From: Aquipuribacter nitratireducens
GTDB taxonomy: Bacteria > Actinomycetota > Actinomycetes > Actinomycetales > JBBAYJ01
Direction of reading: 5' to 3'
NCBI RefSeq assembly: GCF_037860835.1
Contig: NZ_JBBEOG010000003.1
Location: forward strand, 372,001 to 436,000
DNA: 64,000 nt
Shown here: positions 37,403-45,752 of the stretch, in pieces
Layout of the letters: each line of letters opens with the position of its first letter
How positions within the stretch are numbered: position 1 is the stretch's first letter
Notes under the pieces: generated by a model
What the model saw: the letters and a program-made list of their open reading frames with translations, nothing else
The model's database searches: none
What the model was told of the DNA's origin: nothing
Program-made: the position numbers and the translations under genes

Positions 37403-37790
37403 AGTCGCCCGTGTAGTGCTCGAACAGCAGGCCGAGGGAGGCGAAGAGGAGCATCCCGCAGCCGATGAAGAACAGCCACCACCCGACGGCGAGGCCGAGG
37501 AAGACGGCCCCGGCCGCCGTCGCGACGAGGATCGGCCAGATGCTCCGGGGGTTGAAGAACCCGAGGTCACCCGCCCCGTCCGCCACCTCGCCCCGCGCGT
37601 CGTCCTCGGGGCGGGCGTCCACCCGCAGCGACACGAGGTAGAGGTACAGCCCGACCATCGCCGCGAGGCCGCCGGTGAGCAGCAGTGCGGTGAAGCCGAC
37701 GGCCTCCCAGCCGGACAGCAGCCCGTAGACGAAGGCCAGCGGCACGAAGAAGAACGTGCCCGACCCGAACACCCAGGTCTCGACCCTCAC
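37392..37790 (-). CDS. ctaF: Cytochrome c oxidase subunit IV (actinobacterial type)
   Basis: A 132-residue membrane subunit with four hydrophobic helices: [53 protein letters not shown] and [19 protein letters not shown]. It ends EHYTGDFRH, close to the usual EHYRG ending of CtaF. It stabilises the aa3 oxidase of the bc1-aa3 supercomplex. The GTG at 37790 overlaps the ctaD stop (GTGA), making ctaC-ctaD-ctaF a coupled unit. Confidence 0.92.
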
Positions 37791-39595
37791 CTGCGGCCCC
37801 CCTCGTCGTCGCGTCGGTGGCTCGGCGTCGCGCTCCGGGCGCCGGCCGGTGGGCTGTCGCCCCGGTCGACGTCGCTGTCGCCCAGCACCTGCTCGAGGAC
37901 GGTCTTGTCGGCGAACGCCTTGTCGGCGGCCGCGACCTCCGGGTGCGCGAGGTCGAACGCCGGCCGCTCGGAGCGGATCCGCGGCAGCGCCGTGAAGTTG
38001 TGGCGCGGCGGCGGGCACGACGTCGCCCACTCCAGCGACGCGCCCCAGCCCCACGGGTCGTCGACGGTGACCTTCTCGCCCTTGACCGCGGTGATGTAGA
38101 CGTTCCAGAGGAACGGCAGCGTGGCGGCGCCGAGGACGAACGCACCGACGGTCGACACCTGGTTGAGCAGCGTGAAGCCGTCCTCCGGCAGGTAGTCGGC
38201 GTAGCGCCGGCTCATGCCCTCGACGCCGAGCCAGTGCTGCACGAGGAACGTCGTGTGGAAGCCGATGAAGGTGAGCCAGAAGTGCAGCTTGCCGAGGCCC
38301 TCGTTGAGCATCGAGCCGGTGAACTTCGGCCACCAGAAGTAGAAGCCGGCGAACATCGCGAAGACCACGGTGCCGAACACGACGTAGTGGAAGTGCGCGA
38401 CGACGAAGTAGCTGTCGGACAGGTGGAAGTCGAGCGTCGGCGAGCTGAGGATGATGCCGGTCAGGCCGCCGAAGAGGAACGTCACGAGGAAGCCGATGGC
38501 CCAGAGCATCGGGGAGTCGAACGTCACCGAGCCCTTCCACATCGTCCCGATCCAGTTGAAGAACTTCACCCCGGTCGGCACGGCGATGAGCATCGTCATG
38601 AAGGCGAAGAACGGCAGGAGCACCGCGCCCGTGACGTACATGTGGTGGGCCCACACCGCCACCGACAGGCCCGCGATGGCGATGATCGCGAAGACCATGC
38701 CCTTGTAGCCGAACAGCGGCTTGCGGCTGAAGACGGGGATGACCTCGCTGATGATGCCGAAGAACGGCAGCGCGATGATGTAGACCTCGGGGTGGCCGAA
38801 GAACCAGAACAGGTGCTGCCAGAGGATGGCGCCGCCGTTCTCCGCCTCGAAGACGACCGAGCCGAGCTTGCGGTCCGAGCCGAGCACCAGCAGCGCCGCG
38901 GCGAGCGGCGGGAACGCCATCAGCACGAGGACGCTCGTGATGAGCGTGCTCCAGCTGAAGATCGGCATCCGGAACATCACCATGCCGGGGGCGCGCATCC
39001 CGATGATCGTCGTGATGAAGTTGACGGCGCCGAGGATCGTGCCGAAGCCACCGAGCGCGAGGCCGAAGATCCACAGGTCGGCGCCGAGACCCGGCGAGTA
39101 CGCCTCGGTCGACAGCGGCGTGTAGGCGAACCAGCCGAACCCGGCGGCGCCGAGCGGCGTGAGGAAGCCCGAGACGGCGATGAGGCCGCCGAAGAGGTAC
39201 AGCCAGTACGCGAAGGCGTTGAGGCGCGGGAACGCGACGTCCGGCGCGCCGATCTGCAGCGGCAGCAGCCAGTTGGCGAAACCCGCGAAGAGGGGCGTCG
39301 CGAACAGCAGCAGCATGATCGTGCCGTGCATCGTGAAGAGCTGGTTGTAGCTCTCCTTCGACTCCACGACCTGAAGACCCGGGGAGAAGAGCTCCGCGCG
39401 GATAGCGAGCGCCATGATGCCGGCGATGACGAAGAAGAAGAACGACGAGACGAGGTACAGCGTCCCGATCTTCTTGTGGTCCGTCGTCGTGAGGTAGTCG
39501 GCGAGGAGGCGCCCGAGGCCTCGCTCCTTCGCGACCGGGAGCGGCGTCCCGGCCGACTGCGCGTCGCGGTAGGCGACGCCCTGGACGGTGGCCAT
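37787..39595 (-). CDS. ctaD: Cytochrome c oxidase subunit I
   Basis: A 602-residue heme-copper oxidase catalytic subunit with twelve membrane helices. Ligands are visible: the low-spin heme His in [12 protein letters not shown], the CuB His-Tyr pair in GHPEVYI, the two CuB histidines in AHHMY, and the heme a3 / second heme a histidines in VAHFHYV. The C-terminus ends in a charged Arg/Asp tail. It reduces oxygen with electrons from CtaC. The ATG at 39595 overlaps the ctaC stop by one base (TGATG), with GAGGAGG about 7 nt upstream inside ctaC. Confidence 0.97.
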
Positions 39596-40545
39596 CAGGA
39601 GTCCTCCTCGATCCCGAGCTCACTGTCATCGGGCGCGGGATCGGGCGCGTCGCCTATCCCTGGGTCGTCGCGGTCGCCGGTCACGCTGCCGCCCACCTCG
39701 CCGGTGAGCCCGCTGCGGCTGAGGTCCGTCGACAGGCGGCCCGTCTGTCCGAGCGCACGCAACCTCTCGAGGTACTCGTCGTACTCGCCCCGGGACACGA
39801 CCTCGACGTTGAAGAGCATCTCGGAGTGGTACTCCCCGCACAGCTCGGCGCACTTGCCCTGGAAGCGGCCCTCCTTGGTCGGGACGACCTGGAAGCGGTT
39901 CTCGCGGCCGGCGATGGTGTCCATCTTCATGAGGAACGCGGGGATCCAGAACGAGTGGTTGACGTCGCGGGCGTAGAGGACGAACTCGACGCGCTCGTCG
40001 ACCGGCAGCACGAGGGTGGGGATGCGCTCCTCGGCACCCTCCTCACCGTCGAGGTCCGCCTGGACACCGGTCTCGAAGACACCTTCCTCGACGTAGTTGA
40101 AGTCCCACGACCACTGCTTGCCGATCACCTCGACGGTGTGGTCGGGCTCCTCCTCGGTGCTGAGGATCGCCGCCTGCGACGTGGCCGTGTAGTAGAAGAG
40201 CACCGCGACCATCATGAGCGGCACGGCCGTGTACATGACCTCGAGCGGCAGGTGGTAGCGGAACTGCGGCGGCACCTCGGGGTCGCCGGCACGCCGCCGG
40301 TAGGCGATGACGCACCACACCGTGAGGCCCCACACGATGACCCCGATGGCGAGCGCCGCGATCCACGAGCCGTTCCACAGCGTCTGGATCATCGGGGTGT
40401 TGTTGGTGGCCCCCACGCTCTCGGCGGGGAGGTAGCCGCGTCTCAGCTGGTCCGCCGAGCAGCCGCTGAGCGCGAGCACGGCGGCCGCGGCGAGCCCGGC
40501 CCGGGCTGCGCGGAACCGAACGGCCGCGGAGCGAGTTGTCGTCAC
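39595..40545 (-). CDS. ctaC: Cytochrome c oxidase subunit II
   Basis: A 316-residue lipoprotein-type CuA subunit. The signal ends LALSGC (C29). Two membrane helices follow at about 60-80 and 104-122, then the periplasmic-side cupredoxin domain with CuA ligands H197 and C232, C236, H240, M243 in [13 protein letters not shown]. It passes electrons from the bc1-bound cytochrome c to CtaD. The 50-residue C-terminal tail is acidic and disordered. The GTG at 40545 has a GGGGAAGG site upstream. It diverges from the desulfurase-like gene. Confidence 0.96.
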
Positions 40546-40730: not shown

Positions 40731-41882
40731 ATGACGTCCGGCACGACGTCCGACCCGGTCGACCTCGACACGGCGACGGCGGCACCTCCCCTCCCGGTCG
40801 CGGTCGACGCGTGGCGCGTGGCCCTGGACGACGCGTGGGCCGACGAGCGGGGACTGCACGGCACGGGTGCGCGGGCCCGGCTCGTCCTCGGGCAGGTGCG
40901 CTCCGCCCTCGCGGAGCTGGTGGGCGATCCGGGGGCGCTCGTCGGCCTCCCGCCGGACCACGTGCGCGCGCTGCACGCCGCGGTCCTCGGCTGCTCGGCG
41001 CCCACGGCAGCCGCGGACGGCCCTGTCGTCGTCAGCGCGGTGGAGCACTCCGCCGTCCACCACGCGGCCCGCTTCTCGGGGCAGGTCCGTGAGGTGGCGG
41101 TCGACCGCGACGGGCGCGTCGACCTCGACGCCCTCGCGGACGCCCTGCCGGGGGCACGGCTGGCGTGCGTCCAGCAGGCGAACCAGGAGATCGGCACGCT
41201 GCAGGACCTCGAGGCCGTCCACGCGCTGTGCCGGCGCGAGGGGGTGCCGCTGCTCGTCGACGCCGGCGCCTCGCTGGGTCACGTGCCCGTTCCCGGGGCC
41301 TGGGACGTCCTCGTCGGCTCGCCCCGGGCGTGGGGGTCGGTCCCGGGTGCGGCGCTGCTCGTCCTGCGCCCGGGCGTCCGCTGGCGGCGCAGCGGTCCCG
41401 GTGAGGCAGGCGCCTCGCAGCGGCCCGGCGAGCACCCGGGCACCGTCGACGTCCCGGCCGCGCTGGCCGCCGCGGTGTCCCTGCAGTCCCTGCAGGCGGG
41501 ACCACTGGGCGACGCGGACCCCCGCCACGCCCTCGTCGCTCGCCTGCGCGAGCGGGTGGCCGAGGTGCCCGGCACCGACGTCGTCGGGTCGGCGGGGCAC
41601 CGCCTCCCCCACGTGCTGACGGTCTCGGCCCTCTACGTGCCGGGCGAGGAGCTCGTCCGCCGCCTCGACGCGGTCGGGTTCCGGGTCGGGTCGGGCTCGG
41701 CGTGCACCGCGGACACGCTGCGGCCGAGCCACGTTCTGGCCGCGGTCGGGGCCCTCACGCACGGCAACGTGCGCGTCGCCGTGCCCCGTGGCACCGACCC
41801 GGCGGTCCTCGACCGGTTCGCGCCCGCCCTGGCGGAGGTCGTGGCGGAGCTGCGGCGCGAGCTCGGTGCGGAGTCGCTGTGA
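40731..41882 (+). CDS. Cysteine desulfurase-like protein lacking the PLP lysine
   Basis: A 383-residue class V aminotransferase-fold protein aligned by eye to IscS/NifS. Retained: EH at 105-106 (VEHSAVHH), N151-QEIGTLQD, D177 in VDAGASLG, and the sulfur-accepting cysteine C325 in GSACTADTLRPSHVL. Lost: the SxHKxxGPxG loop reads GSPRAWGSVPG, putting R199 where the Schiff-base lysine should be, and P where the His is. VDATQS has become VDAGAS, and the N-terminal SGATESN loop is unrecognisable. The protein probably cannot use PLP normally. The next gene is tusA, overlapping by GTGA, so a sulfur-relay or scaffold role is inferred. Confidence 0.82.
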   Translation: MTSGTTSDPVDLDTATAAPPLPVAVDAWRVALDDAWADERGLHGTGARARLVLGQVRSALAELVGDPGALVGLPPDHVRALHAAVLGCSAPTAAADGPVVVSAVEHSAVHHAARFSGQVREVAVDRDGRVDLDALADALPGARLACVQQANQEIGTLQDLEAVHALCRREGVPLLVDAGASLGHVPVPGAWDVLVGSPRAWGSVPGAALLVLRPGVRWRRSGPGEAGASQRPGEHPGTVDVPAALAAAVSLQSLQAGPLGDADPRHALVARLRERVAEVPGTDVVGSAGHRLPHVLTVSALYVPGEELVRRLDAVGFRVGSGSACTADTLRPSHVLAAVGALTHGNVRVAVPRGTDPAVLDRFAPALAEVVAELRRELGAESL

Positions 41883-42208
41883 GCACCGCCGACTCCGCCG
41901 ACCTCCCGCACCTCACCGTCGACGCGCGCGGGCTGCGCTGCCCGCTGCCCGTGCTGCGGCTCGCGGCGGCGGTCCGGGACCTGGCGCCCGGGACGGTGGC
42001 CGCGGTCGTCGCGACCGACCCCGCGGTCCGCCACGACGTCCCGGCCTGGGCGCGCCTGCGAGGGCACACGGTGCTCGAGGTCCGGGAGGGCGAGGAGGAG
42101 ACCTACGAGGTCGTGGTCCGGCTGGGCGGCGGCACCTCGACCGGACCGGGCCTCGACAGACCGGCCGGCGACGGCGTCGCGAGCAGCGCCGGCAGGCGGG
42201 CGAGGTAG
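41879..42208 (+). CDS. tusA: TusA-like sulfurtransferase
   Basis: A 109-residue sulfur carrier. The TusA core (about 12-83) contains the CPxP motif in DARGLRCPLPVLRL, with C21 as the persulfide cysteine. The last 25 residues (GTSTGPGLDRPAG onward) are a low-complexity tail, and the gene overlaps the 3' end of aat on the opposite strand by 106 bp. The GTG overlaps the stop of the desulfurase-like gene (GTGA), so the two are co-translated. In related actinobacteria these two functions can occur as one fused protein. Confidence 0.88.
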   Translation: MSTADSADLPHLTVDARGLRCPLPVLRLAAAVRDLAPGTVAAVVATDPAVRHDVPAWARLRGHTVLEVREGEEETYEVVVRLGGGTSTGPGLDRPAGDGVASSAGRRAR

Positions 42209-42810
42209 CCGGACCGCGTCAGCTCGGTCACCCCGAGGGTCTCCAGGTGCGGGGTGCTCCACTGCACGTCGACGAGCCGCGGCCCCGTCGGGTCGGCGGC
42301 GAGGAGCCGGCAGAGCGCGACGACGGCGTGCTTGGAGGCGTCGGTCTCGCGGTGGAACTTCGACTCCGCCGCGAAGAGACCGCCCAGCGCCACCCCGAAC
42401 AGACCGCCCACGAGCCGGCCCCCGGCCCACGTCTCGACCGAGTGCGCGAGACCCGCGTCGTAGAGCTCCCGGTAGGCGCGGGCGTAGCGCCCGTCGATCC
42501 AGGCGCCGTCCCGGGCGGGGTCCGCACACGCCGCGACGACCTCGTCGAAGGCGCAGTCCACCCGCGTCTCGAACCGGCGTGAGCTGCGCCGCAACGACCG
42601 CGACTCGTGGACCGCTGCGGGCTCGAGGACCCCGCGCGGGTCCGGGGAGAACCAGCCGAGGACCTCGCGGCGGCGCAGCCGGACCCCCATCGCGAACAGG
42701 CCGCGGCGGTAGCCGTCGAGCAGCAGCCCCGACGCGAGCGCGCCCCCGACGCACACCAGGTCCTGGCCGTCGGGGGCGCGCTCGAGCGCCCTGTCGAAGG
42801 GGTGGCTCAG
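42103..42810 (-). CDS. aat: Leucyl/phenylalanyl-tRNA-protein transferase
   Basis: A 235-residue N-end-rule enzyme that attaches Leu or Phe to N-terminal Lys/Arg for ClpS/ClpAP-type degradation. Family landmarks: LLLDGYRRGLFAMGV, WFSPDPRGVL, GAWIDGRYARAYRELYDAGLAHSVE, and GGLFAAESKFHRETDASKHAVVAL. No ATG, GTG or TTG lies at the expected start; the frame before the conserved region offers a CTG at 42810 that overlaps the erpA stop as CTGA, analogous to the many GTGA junctions here. I infer this non-standard start. The C-terminal 25 residues overlap tusA. Confidence 0.88.
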   Translation of the reverse strand: MSHPFDRALERAPDGQDLVCVGGALASGLLLDGYRRGLFAMGVRLRRREVLGWFSPDPRGVLEPAAVHESRSLRRSSRRFETRVDCAFDEVVAACADPARDGAWIDGRYARAYRELYDAGLAHSVETWAGGRLVGGLFGVALGGLFAAESKFHRETDASKHAVVALCRLLAADPTGPRLVDVQWSTPHLETLGVTELTRSGYLARLPALLATPSPAGLSRPGPVEVPPPSRTTTS

Positions 42811-43169
42811 TGGAAGCTGTCGCCGCAGGCGCAGGAGCCCTGCGCGTTCGGGTTGTCGATCTGGAAGCCCTGCTTCTCGATCGTGTCGGCGAAGTCGATG
42901 GTCGCGCCGGCGAGGTACGGCACCGACATGCGGTCGACGACGAGCTCGACGCCACCGAACTCGCGGACGGCGTCGCCGTCCATCTGCCGGTCGTCGAAGT
43001 ACAGCTGGTAGATGAGGCCCGAGCAGCCGCCGGGCTGCACCGCGAGCCGCAGCCGGAGGTCGTCGCGGCCCTCCTGGGCCAGCAGCGCCTTCACCTTGTC
43101 GGCGGCGACGTCGGTCAGGGTGACCTCGTGCGTGGCGGTGGCGCCGGTCGTGGCGGTGGTGTCGGTCAT
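42807..43169 (-). CDS. erpA: Iron-sulfur cluster insertion protein ErpA (HesB/IscA family)
   Basis: A 120-residue A-type Fe-S carrier with the three conserved cysteines: one in QPGGCSGLIYQL and two in GSCACGDSFH at the end. It passes clusters to client enzymes; miaB, rimO and nadA in this window are possible clients. The N-terminal 14 residues are Thr/Ala-rich. The ATG at 43169 has AGGAG about 7 nt upstream. Its stop overlaps the inferred CTG start of aat. Confidence 0.94.
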   Translation of the reverse strand: MTDTTATTGATATHEVTLTDVAADKVKALLAQEGRDDLRLRLAVQPGGCSGLIYQLYFDDRQMDGDAVREFGGVELVVDRMSVPYLAGATIDFADTIEKQGFQIDNPNAQGSCACGDSFH

Positions 43170-44513: not shown

Positions 44514-45752
44514 GTGACGAGCACCACGACCGGCACCACCGCCACGGCCCTGCCGACCCCCGCCGTGCCGGGGTCGCTGCTGCTGCTCGGGCGCGGCCGG
44601 GACCTCGCGAGCGAGCGGGGCGTCGAGTGCCCCGGCGACCTGCCCGCCCCCTCCGACCCCGACCTCGTGGCCCGGGCCCAGCGCGCCCGCGCGGAGCTCG
44701 GCGACCGGGCCTTCGTGCTCGGTCACCACTACCAGCGCGACGAGGTCATCGCCTTCGCCGACGTCACCGGTGACTCGTTCACGCTGGCCCGGGACGCCGC
44801 CGCCCGGCCGGAGGCGGAGTACGTCGTGTTCTGCGGCGTCCACTTCATGGCCGAGAGCGCCGACATGCTGACGGGTCCGGAGCAGGCCGTCGTCCTGCCG
44901 GACCTGTCGGCCGGCTGCTCGATGGCGGACATGGCCGCGATCACGCAGGTCGAGGACGCGTGGCGCGTGCTGCAGGACGCCGGCGTCGCCGAGCGGACCG
45001 TCCCCGTGACGTACATGAACTCCTCCGCGGCCATCAAGGCGTTCACCGGCCGCCACGGCGGCACCGTCTGCACCTCGAGCAACGCCGAGCAGGCCCTGCG
45101 GTGGGCCTTCGAGCAGGTGGGCGGGGTGGAGGCCGAGGGCCCGACCTCGGGCAAGGTCCTGTTCCTCCCGGACCAGCACCTCGGTCGCAACACCGCCGTG
45201 CTCGCCCTCGGCCTCTCTCTCGACGACTGCGTCGTCTTCGACCCGTGGCGGCCGGGTGGCGGTCTCACCCGCGAGCAGCTCGAGCGCGCGCGGATGATCC
45301 TGTGGCGCGGCCACTGCTCGGTGCACGGCCGCTTCAGCGCCGAGGCGGTCGACGCCTACCGGGAGCGTGTGCCCGGCATCAACGTGCTCGTCCACCCCGA
45401 GTGCCGGCACGAGGTCGTGACCCGGGCGGACGTCGTCGGGTCGACCGAGCTCATCATCCGCACGATCGAGCGGGCCGAGCCGGGCTCGTCGTGGGTCGTC
45501 GGCACGGAGCTCAACCTCGTCAAGCGGCTCGCGGCGGCCCACCCCGACAAGGACGTCCACTTCCTCGACCGGGACGTCTGCTACTGCTCGACGATGAACC
45601 GCATCGACCTGCCGCACCTCGTGTGGGCGCTGGAGTCGCTCGCCGCCGGGCGGGTCGTCAACCGGGTCGTCGTCGACGAGGAGACCGCCCGCTGGGCGAA
45701 GGTGGGCCTCGACCGCATGCTCGCGCTGCCCGGACCGACGGCCCGCGACTGA
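44514..45752 (+). CDS. nadA: Quinolinate synthase NadA
   Basis: A 412-residue [4Fe-4S] enzyme condensing iminoaspartate with dihydroxyacetone phosphate in NAD synthesis. Visible parts: LGHHYQRDEVI, the first cluster cysteine region VVFCGVHFMAE, VTYMNSSAAIKA, FLPDQHLGRNTA, HPECRHEV, and the last cysteines in DVCYCSTMNRIDL. nadB and nadC are not adjacent. The GTG at 44514 lacks a convincing ribosome site. The 40-residue N-terminal Thr/Pro-rich lead is typical of high-GC members. A 14-bp minisatellite follows the stop. Confidence 0.94.
   Translation: MTSTTTGTTATALPTPAVPGSLLLLGRGRDLASERGVECPGDLPAPSDPDLVARAQRARAELGDRAFVLGHHYQRDEVIAFADVTGDSFTLARDAAARPEAEYVVFCGVHFMAESADMLTGPEQAVVLPDLSAGCSMADMAAITQVEDAWRVLQDAGVAERTVPVTYMNSSAAIKAFTGRHGGTVCTSSNAEQALRWAFEQVGGVEAEGPTSGKVLFLPDQHLGRNTAVLALGLSLDDCVVFDPWRPGGGLTREQLERARMILWRGHCSVHGRFSAEAVDAYRERVPGINVLVHPECRHEVVTRADVVGSTELIIRTIERAEPGSSWVVGTELNLVKRLAAAHPDKDVHFLDRDVCYCSTMNRIDLPHLVWALESLAAGRVVNRVVVDEETARWAKVGLDRMLALPGPTARD

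Follow-up and report, generated by a model that had tools for sequence, protein, structure and literature searches.

The gene at positions 40731 to 41882 of the window (the whole stretch of 64,000 nucleotides of Aquipuribacter nitratireducens DNA that was analyzed) encodes an IscS/NifS-like protein that lacks the PLP lysine and keeps the sulfur-carrying cysteine, a description that is well supported by the sequences compared here. A search of 396 sampled genomes from the same bacterial order turned up only orthologues that likewise lack the lysine, and further losses are seen in other actinobacterial families. In effect, the family is a natural experiment that bears on which desulfurase parts are needed, and it allows one to test whether such a fold can carry sulfur when PLP is absent. 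Cysteine desulfurase annotations may be wrong for proteins of this kind.

Results

The protein, here called P0001, has 383 amino acids and an ATG start, is encoded on the forward strand, and was characterized by its open reading frame, Pfam and NCBIfam searches, an AlphaFold model, and fold matches. It is followed on the same strand by tusA (41879 to 42208; product P0002, 109 amino acids, GTG start; assigned by Pfam and NCBIfam), and the two frames share a GTGA stop/start overlap at positions 41879 to 41882. This overlap was part of the original prediction, as were the IscS-type membership of P0001, its retained sulfur-carrying cysteine, and an intact CPxP cysteine in TusA, and all of these were borne out. 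P0001 matches Pfam Aminotran_5 (PF00266; E = 2.5e-19) and has the aminotransferase class V fold. Its best NCBIfam match is NifS, at 125.9 bits and hence well below the cut-off of 530.75. The persulfide cysteine, Cys325 (codon at 41703 to 41705, forward strand), stands in an SGSAC loop. The tusA product matches Pfam TusA (PF01206; E = 1.8e-21, 76.2 bits against 28.6), falls under the cut-off of the NCBIfam TusA equivalog (55.1 bits versus 78), and carries Cys21 in a CPLP motif (codon at 41939 to 41941). The convergent 3' ends of tusA (forward strand) and aat (reverse strand) overlap by about 100 bases at window positions 42103 to 42208.

There is no lysine anywhere in the 383 residues of P0001, so a Schiff base cannot form within the chain. 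The original prediction would have been contradicted by another lysine taking up the PLP site; within one chain this is impossible, and we rejected an alternative PLP lysine on the same grounds. The motif reads S197-P198-R199-A200-W201. In an ungapped alignment with the NifS/IscS-type paralogues of the same genome, S-P-R-A-W-G stands against S-G-H-K-L-G. Column 200 is Lys in at least 90% of a 33-sequence alignment (P0001 and 32 IscS-like proteins), and the lysine-containing orthologues (SAHKWGG) also place their Lys at Ala200 of P0001. Ala200 (codon at 41328 to 41330, forward strand) therefore occupies the Schiff-base position, and Arg199 (41325 to 41327, forward strand) that of the His preceding it. 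Thus, the claim that Arg199 had replaced the Schiff-base lysine was right about the missing lysine and off by one about the residue in its place. Nor is Arg a conserved replacement, a proposal that we reject: the lysine position is occupied in orthologues by Asp, Ser, Thr, Ala, or Gly, whereas Arg199 aligns with the His and is common to 14 of 102 proteins from the order.

The reported loss of a His likewise held in part, in that the residue before the lysine is now Arg199, whereas His106 (codon at 41046 to 41048, forward strand), which we take to be the PLP-stacking His, is kept in P0001; it is Arg in 72 of the 102 order members. The predicted loss of the Gln of VDAxQS was confirmed, with Ala180 in its place. 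Altogether, P0001 keeps His106, Asn151, Asp177, Ser197, Thr238, Cys325, and Arg348 and has lost Gly77-Thr78 (which reads H77-V78), Gln180, His199, and Lys200. We assume that Asn151 (41181 to 41183) and Asp177 (41259 to 41261) are the PLP ring Asn and PLP ring Asp, that Arg348 (41772 to 41774; all forward strand) is the substrate-carboxylate Arg, that Gly77-Thr78 is the phosphate loop, and that G77, T78, H106, S197, and K200 are PLP contacts. An internal aldimine is almost certainly absent from P0001, and ordinary activity as a PLP cysteine desulfurase is very probably absent as well. Because Asn151 and Asp177 never change and His106, Ser197, and Thr238 remain, the protein may hold PLP or another ligand noncovalently.

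To determine how far the substitution extends, 396 genomes of the order were searched at E ≤ 1e-90, a threshold at which more diverged copies are missed. The family was found in 101 genomes (102 proteins), and the remaining 295 had no match at this threshold. At position 200, none of the 102 proteins has Lys; instead, the residue is Asp (68), Ser (22), Thr (6), Ala (5), or Gly (1). Asn151 and Asp177 are invariant in all 102, and Cys325 and Arg348 are invariant in all 101 that could be read there, the last protein being cut by a contig end. With no lysine kept in 102 proteins while these four residues are invariant, its absence goes beyond chance. In 66 of the 102, there is no lysine at all within the matched columns. 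Other parts of the pocket vary: Thr78 is kept in 35 proteins, Asp stands at position 197 in 76, and Asp200 co-occurs with Arg106 in 67 of its 68 cases, the remaining case lacking that residue. A TGA codon lies inside the matched stretch in 3 of the 102 matches, and the other 99 are stop-free.

In G002, a 550-contig draft from another species of the genus, neither the family nor any TusA was found. A weakly matching fragment from that draft was rejected as this gene, since it reads as the terminal part of a NifS-like gene that precedes an MnmA-like open reading frame. One genome, G522, has two lysine-less copies (L169 and L170), one of which has the loop CGCTC and is followed by a TusA-like open reading frame without the CPxP cysteine.

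The lysine-less gene is under purifying selection and is not neutral. Its dN/dS was 0.25 (dS = 0.67) when the window genome was compared with the relative nearest to it; in that pair, ctaC gave 0.245, tusA 0.222 (62 codons), and erpA 0.17. Values for the gene ranged from 0.05 to 0.33 over ten lysine-less pairs and from 0.11 to 0.19 over six pairs from outside the order. Among the neighboring genes, the comparisons of ctaC in G547/G718 (40 badly aligned codons) and of tusA in G186/G225 (13 codons) were ignored. Two pairs without an adjacent tusA gave 0.05 and 0.33, versus 0.01 and 0.34 for their ctaC.

Outside the order, we examined 53 high-scoring relatives, comprising a Nocardioides contig and 52 genomes from the best matches listed, a set that favors lysine-containing proteins. 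Lys is present in 52 of them, mostly as SAHKWGG, and Cys325 and Arg348 are present in all 53. A more divergent set came from 32 weaker-scoring genomes chosen by hand, 31 of which matched (32 matches); two matches without a locus were left untyped, giving 30 proteins. Their assignment to the family rests on profile scores and, for 23 of the 30, also on a nearby TusA match within their short loci. Here, 11 proteins have Lys and 19 do not (8 Ser, 6 Asp, 2 Gly, 1 Thr, 1 Ala, and 1 Met), and the cysteine of the loop is found in 30 of 30. Taken together, the sulfur cysteine is present in 184 of 184 readable proteins (101 from the order, 53 outside it, and 30 divergent). The six proteins of family f51 with Asp200 have Arg (four), Lys (one), or Thr (one) at position 199, and, as with Asp200 and Arg106 in the order, oppositely charged residues may together occupy the space left in the pocket.

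Trees were built by a quick method with SH-aLRT supports and were thinned by family (82 of 158 rows in the first and 91 rows in the second); the second was built without the active-site columns and without the divergent copy L170 of G522. In the first tree, the lysine-less proteins of the order form one group (SH-aLRT 84) beside the lysine-keeping Nocardioides protein and family f45. The second tree recovers the group (SH-aLRT 86), and one lysine-less outsider, f57, falls near it with a weakly resolved placement. On this second tree, the presence or absence of Lys needs seven changes, three of them forced by starred (well-supported) branches, with several branches below 80, several long divergent rows, and stars that are less reliable under the quick method where rows are long. 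A single loss across all lineages is thus disfavored. Lysine loss looks old in the window's order and has probably been repeated in other lineages, and the pattern suggests that the sulfur-carrying part of the protein, and not its enzyme chemistry, has been preserved by evolution.

We also compared conservation between 101 lysine-less and 52 lysine-containing rows, leaving out L170 of G522 and G078 (an outside protein without lysine). At 33 positions, conservation is 95% or more in the lysine-containing relatives but below 80% in the lysine-less ones; G77, T78, H106, S197, and K200 are among them. The other 28 are spread over the chain, and none is known to us as a PLP contact, so part of the change at lost positions is, as far as these alignments go, general divergence. 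Forty-four positions are at least 95% conserved in both groups, including N151, D177, C325, S333, G345, and R348, and S321 to S323 are also retained in the lysine-less relatives. The stem leading to the family of P0001 is long, at about 1.0 change per column, and this family departs from the conserved P39, R41, and R47, so its function may have drifted.

Names from NCBIfam and Pfam around P0001 are CtaD, CtaC, Aat, ErpA, glycerate kinase, and NadA. Upstream and divergent are ctaC (39595 to 40545) and ctaD (37787 to 39595), both on the reverse strand; downstream lie erpA, for an A-type Fe-S carrier (42807 to 43169, reverse strand), and nadA, for quinolinate synthase (44514 to 45752, forward strand). 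The order ctaD-ctaC, lysine-less gene, tusA, erpA, nadA is largely conserved. Divergent ctaC is found upstream in 99 of 102 loci of the order and 51 of 53 outside it. Where there is enough sequence, erpA lies on the downstream side in 71 of 73 loci within the order and in all 33 outside it, and nadA does so in 61 of 73 and 29 of 33, respectively. Because this synteny is common to both, the lysine-less and lysine-containing genes are orthologous. For the same reason, the closeness of erpA, which the original prediction had brought forward, is real but, like that of nadA, is no evidence for the lysine-less function. Actinobacterial pairs of desulfurase and TusA, including single-frame fusions, occupy the same ctaCD-erpA-nadA locus with tusA adjacent or fused. 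Those outside the order differ from P0001 in that 52 of the 53 typed keep the lysine, and these relatives may be active enzymes. Family f37 encodes both proteins as a single-frame fusion in 6 of 6 typed loci (L055, L057, L058, L069, L070, and L072), with the lysine kept.

The proposed coupling to TusA fits the window genome, in which no TusA besides the neighboring one was found at E ≤ 0.01, and the outside relatives, in which a CPxP TusA is next door in 53 of 53 loci. It is not general in the order. Among 101 loci with enough downstream sequence, 69 have an adjacent CPxP TusA and 32 do not, and no TusA was detected at E ≤ 1e-6 in 15 of the 101 genomes that carry the lysine-less protein. One of these 15 is G040, a draft of 73% completeness whose lysine-less gene sits on a 4.3-kb contig; in the other 14, the SGSAC loop was read and is kept in all. 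We therefore reject TusA as an obligate partner for the clade, and since gene-carrying genomes exist without detected TusA, it is neither the sole partner nor the basis of a universal function. TusA was detected at E ≤ 1e-6 in 86 of 101 order genomes with the protein versus 66 of 295 without it, a comparison uncorrected for kinship. The second TusA matches listed for family f10 lie in open reading frames of roughly 750 to 920 residues and were treated as another system; one of 909 residues (L272) looks, from its translation, like a CoA-disulfide-reductase-type/rhodanese/TusA/DsrE fusion.

The AlphaFold model of P0001, made with 33 sequences, has a pLDDT of 90.8 and a pTM of 0.90. Its five best Foldseek matches are chains of Archaeoglobus fulgidus IscS (E down to 3.5e-29), including the IscS-IscU complex and a D199K mutant, and this protein is also the best sequence match in the PDB. 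VIA-align gave Z values of 43.0 to 43.3 against A. fulgidus IscS (rmsd 2.3, 357 to 364 residues aligned) and 43.3 to 44.6 against human Nfs1 and Escherichia coli IscS. Because the values for A. fulgidus IscS and the active desulfurases are close, the fold can be called IscS-type and nothing more specific, and a family absent from the match lists was not taken as excluded.

A. fulgidus IscS (PDB 4eb5, 4hvk, and 4r5f) shares with P0001 the IscS fold, a replaced lysine, and a retained cysteine loop, and its Asp is the commonest replacement in the window's order as well. It differs in being archaeal and crystallized with IscU, and P0001 has Ala at the lysine position while its relatives have Asp, Ser, Thr, Ala, Gly, or Met. 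We know of no link between A. fulgidus IscS and TusA and, to our knowledge, lysine-less IscS is known only from a few archaea. A search of titles and the starts of abstracts, which was not exhaustive, found no paper on a lysine-less, TusA-linked desulfurase in actinobacteria. Excerpts of one study report that A. fulgidus IscS has Asp for Lys, is without desulfurase activity, and gives a Cys ligand to the IscU cluster; they also describe IscS1 of Methanosarcina acetivorans, like P0001 an IscS homologue without the essential lysine but archaeal and insoluble in recombinant form (PMC7585200). The E. coli IscS-TusA complex (PDB 3LVJ and 3LVK), for which excerpts describe sulfur transfer, resembles the pair studied here in joining a persulfide Cys-loop protein to TusA; E. 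coli IscS is, however, active, with PLP on Lys206 (PMC2854127), the residue to which Ala200 corresponds, and P0001 has no lysine.

The window genome encodes other desulfurases, and P0001 is 29 to 39% identical to these paralogues. A SufS scores above its NCBIfam cut-off and has a NifU_N-family (SufU-like) gene just behind it, and a NifS-like desulfurase (L004; G000:C2:447828-448940) lies directly before MnmA (L271; G000:C2:449023-449628). Fe-S assembly and tRNA thiolation thus likely have their own sulfur sources, and loss of desulfurase chemistry from P0001 would therefore be tolerable. The order NifS-like gene, then MnmA, seems to be present in G002 too (L274). A DndA also scores above its NCBIfam cut-off (L002; G000:C5:55129-56220), which suggests that DNA phosphorothioation genes may be nearby.

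Discussion

Our somewhat favored reading is that P0001 is a PLP-free persulfide relay or scaffold, working through the Cys325 loop and descended from an actinobacterial TusA-linked cysteine desulfurase. From the original proposal of a PLP-free relay or scaffold, the lysine-less protein that keeps its sulfur cysteine stands, being clade-wide, under purifying selection, and preceded by A. fulgidus IscS; a relay to TusA as the universal function does not. Along this line of descent, the PLP Schiff-base chemistry would have been lost, and the sequence shows the PLP pocket to be partly dismantled. Cys325, which probably carries sulfur, would then take sulfane sulfur from another donor; candidates are cysteine persulfide bound at Arg348 and one of the cell's own SufS/NifS-type enzymes. 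From Cys325, the sulfur would pass to TusA where TusA is present and otherwise to another acceptor, perhaps the Fe-S machinery; for the window genome itself, we consider the chances of delivery to TusA to be evenly balanced. It is a good deal more tentative that actinobacteria have repeatedly turned a TusA-linked desulfurase into a PLP-free sulfur-transfer protein, giving up the lysine and much of the PLP pocket but keeping the persulfide cysteine, the substrate Arg, and the ring-contact Asn and Asp. In such a protein, a donor resembling cysteine persulfide would bind in the emptied pocket, transpersulfidation would replace PLP chemistry, and TusA would be an optional acceptor.

The nearest rival to this relay is the role reported for A. 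fulgidus IscS, in which Cys325 would help to ligate a cluster bound to a scaffold or carrier such as SufU or ErpA and would donate no sulfur. The best fold matches, the reported inactivity and IscU-cluster ligand of the archaeal protein, the downstream erpA, and the persistence of the gene without detected TusA are all consistent with it. However, erpA is equally conserved beside the outside relatives, the Z values of A. fulgidus IscS are not separated from those of active desulfurases, and 69 of 101 loci in the order still have an adjacent TusA. We consider this role rather unlikely.

Two further possibilities are less likely still, and about equally so. P0001 could be a regulatory or structural subunit that forms mixed dimers with an active NifS/SufS-type desulfurase or competes with it for acceptors. 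Its modeled fold is intact, other desulfurases coexist in the genome and, according to excerpts on the dimeric E. coli IscS, TusA bound there is faced by Cys328 from the other subunit (PMC2854127). Nevertheless, the low identity of P0001 to its own paralogues argues against this reading, and neither role would require the Cys loop to be so strongly conserved. Alternatively, residual activity could use PLP or PMP noncovalently, or Arg199 could hold the phosphate of another ligand. This would accord with the retained H106, N151, D177, S197, and T238, and a report on the A. fulgidus protein bears the title words "unusual L-cysteine desulfurase," so the literature is not unanimous. Yet the phosphate loop reads H77-V78 in P0001, and the Asp residues that most order members have at position 197 (76 of 102) and at position 200 (68 of 102) should repel a phosphate.

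Finally, it is very improbable that this is a desulfurase gene in decay and about to be lost: the long stem, the failure to find the family in G002 or, at E ≤ 1e-90, in 295 of 396 order genomes, and the three TGA-containing matches could be read in this way, but a dN/dS of 0.25 that matches ctaC in a largely conserved locus makes decay unlikely, and the range over the ten lysine-less pairs, the four invariant residues, and the 99 stop-free matches likewise disfavor a pseudogene. As a separate observation, 44 IMG/VR loci (L226 to L269) encode IscS-like proteins, one of which (L227) has three in-frame stops, perhaps from a recoded phage or from damage.
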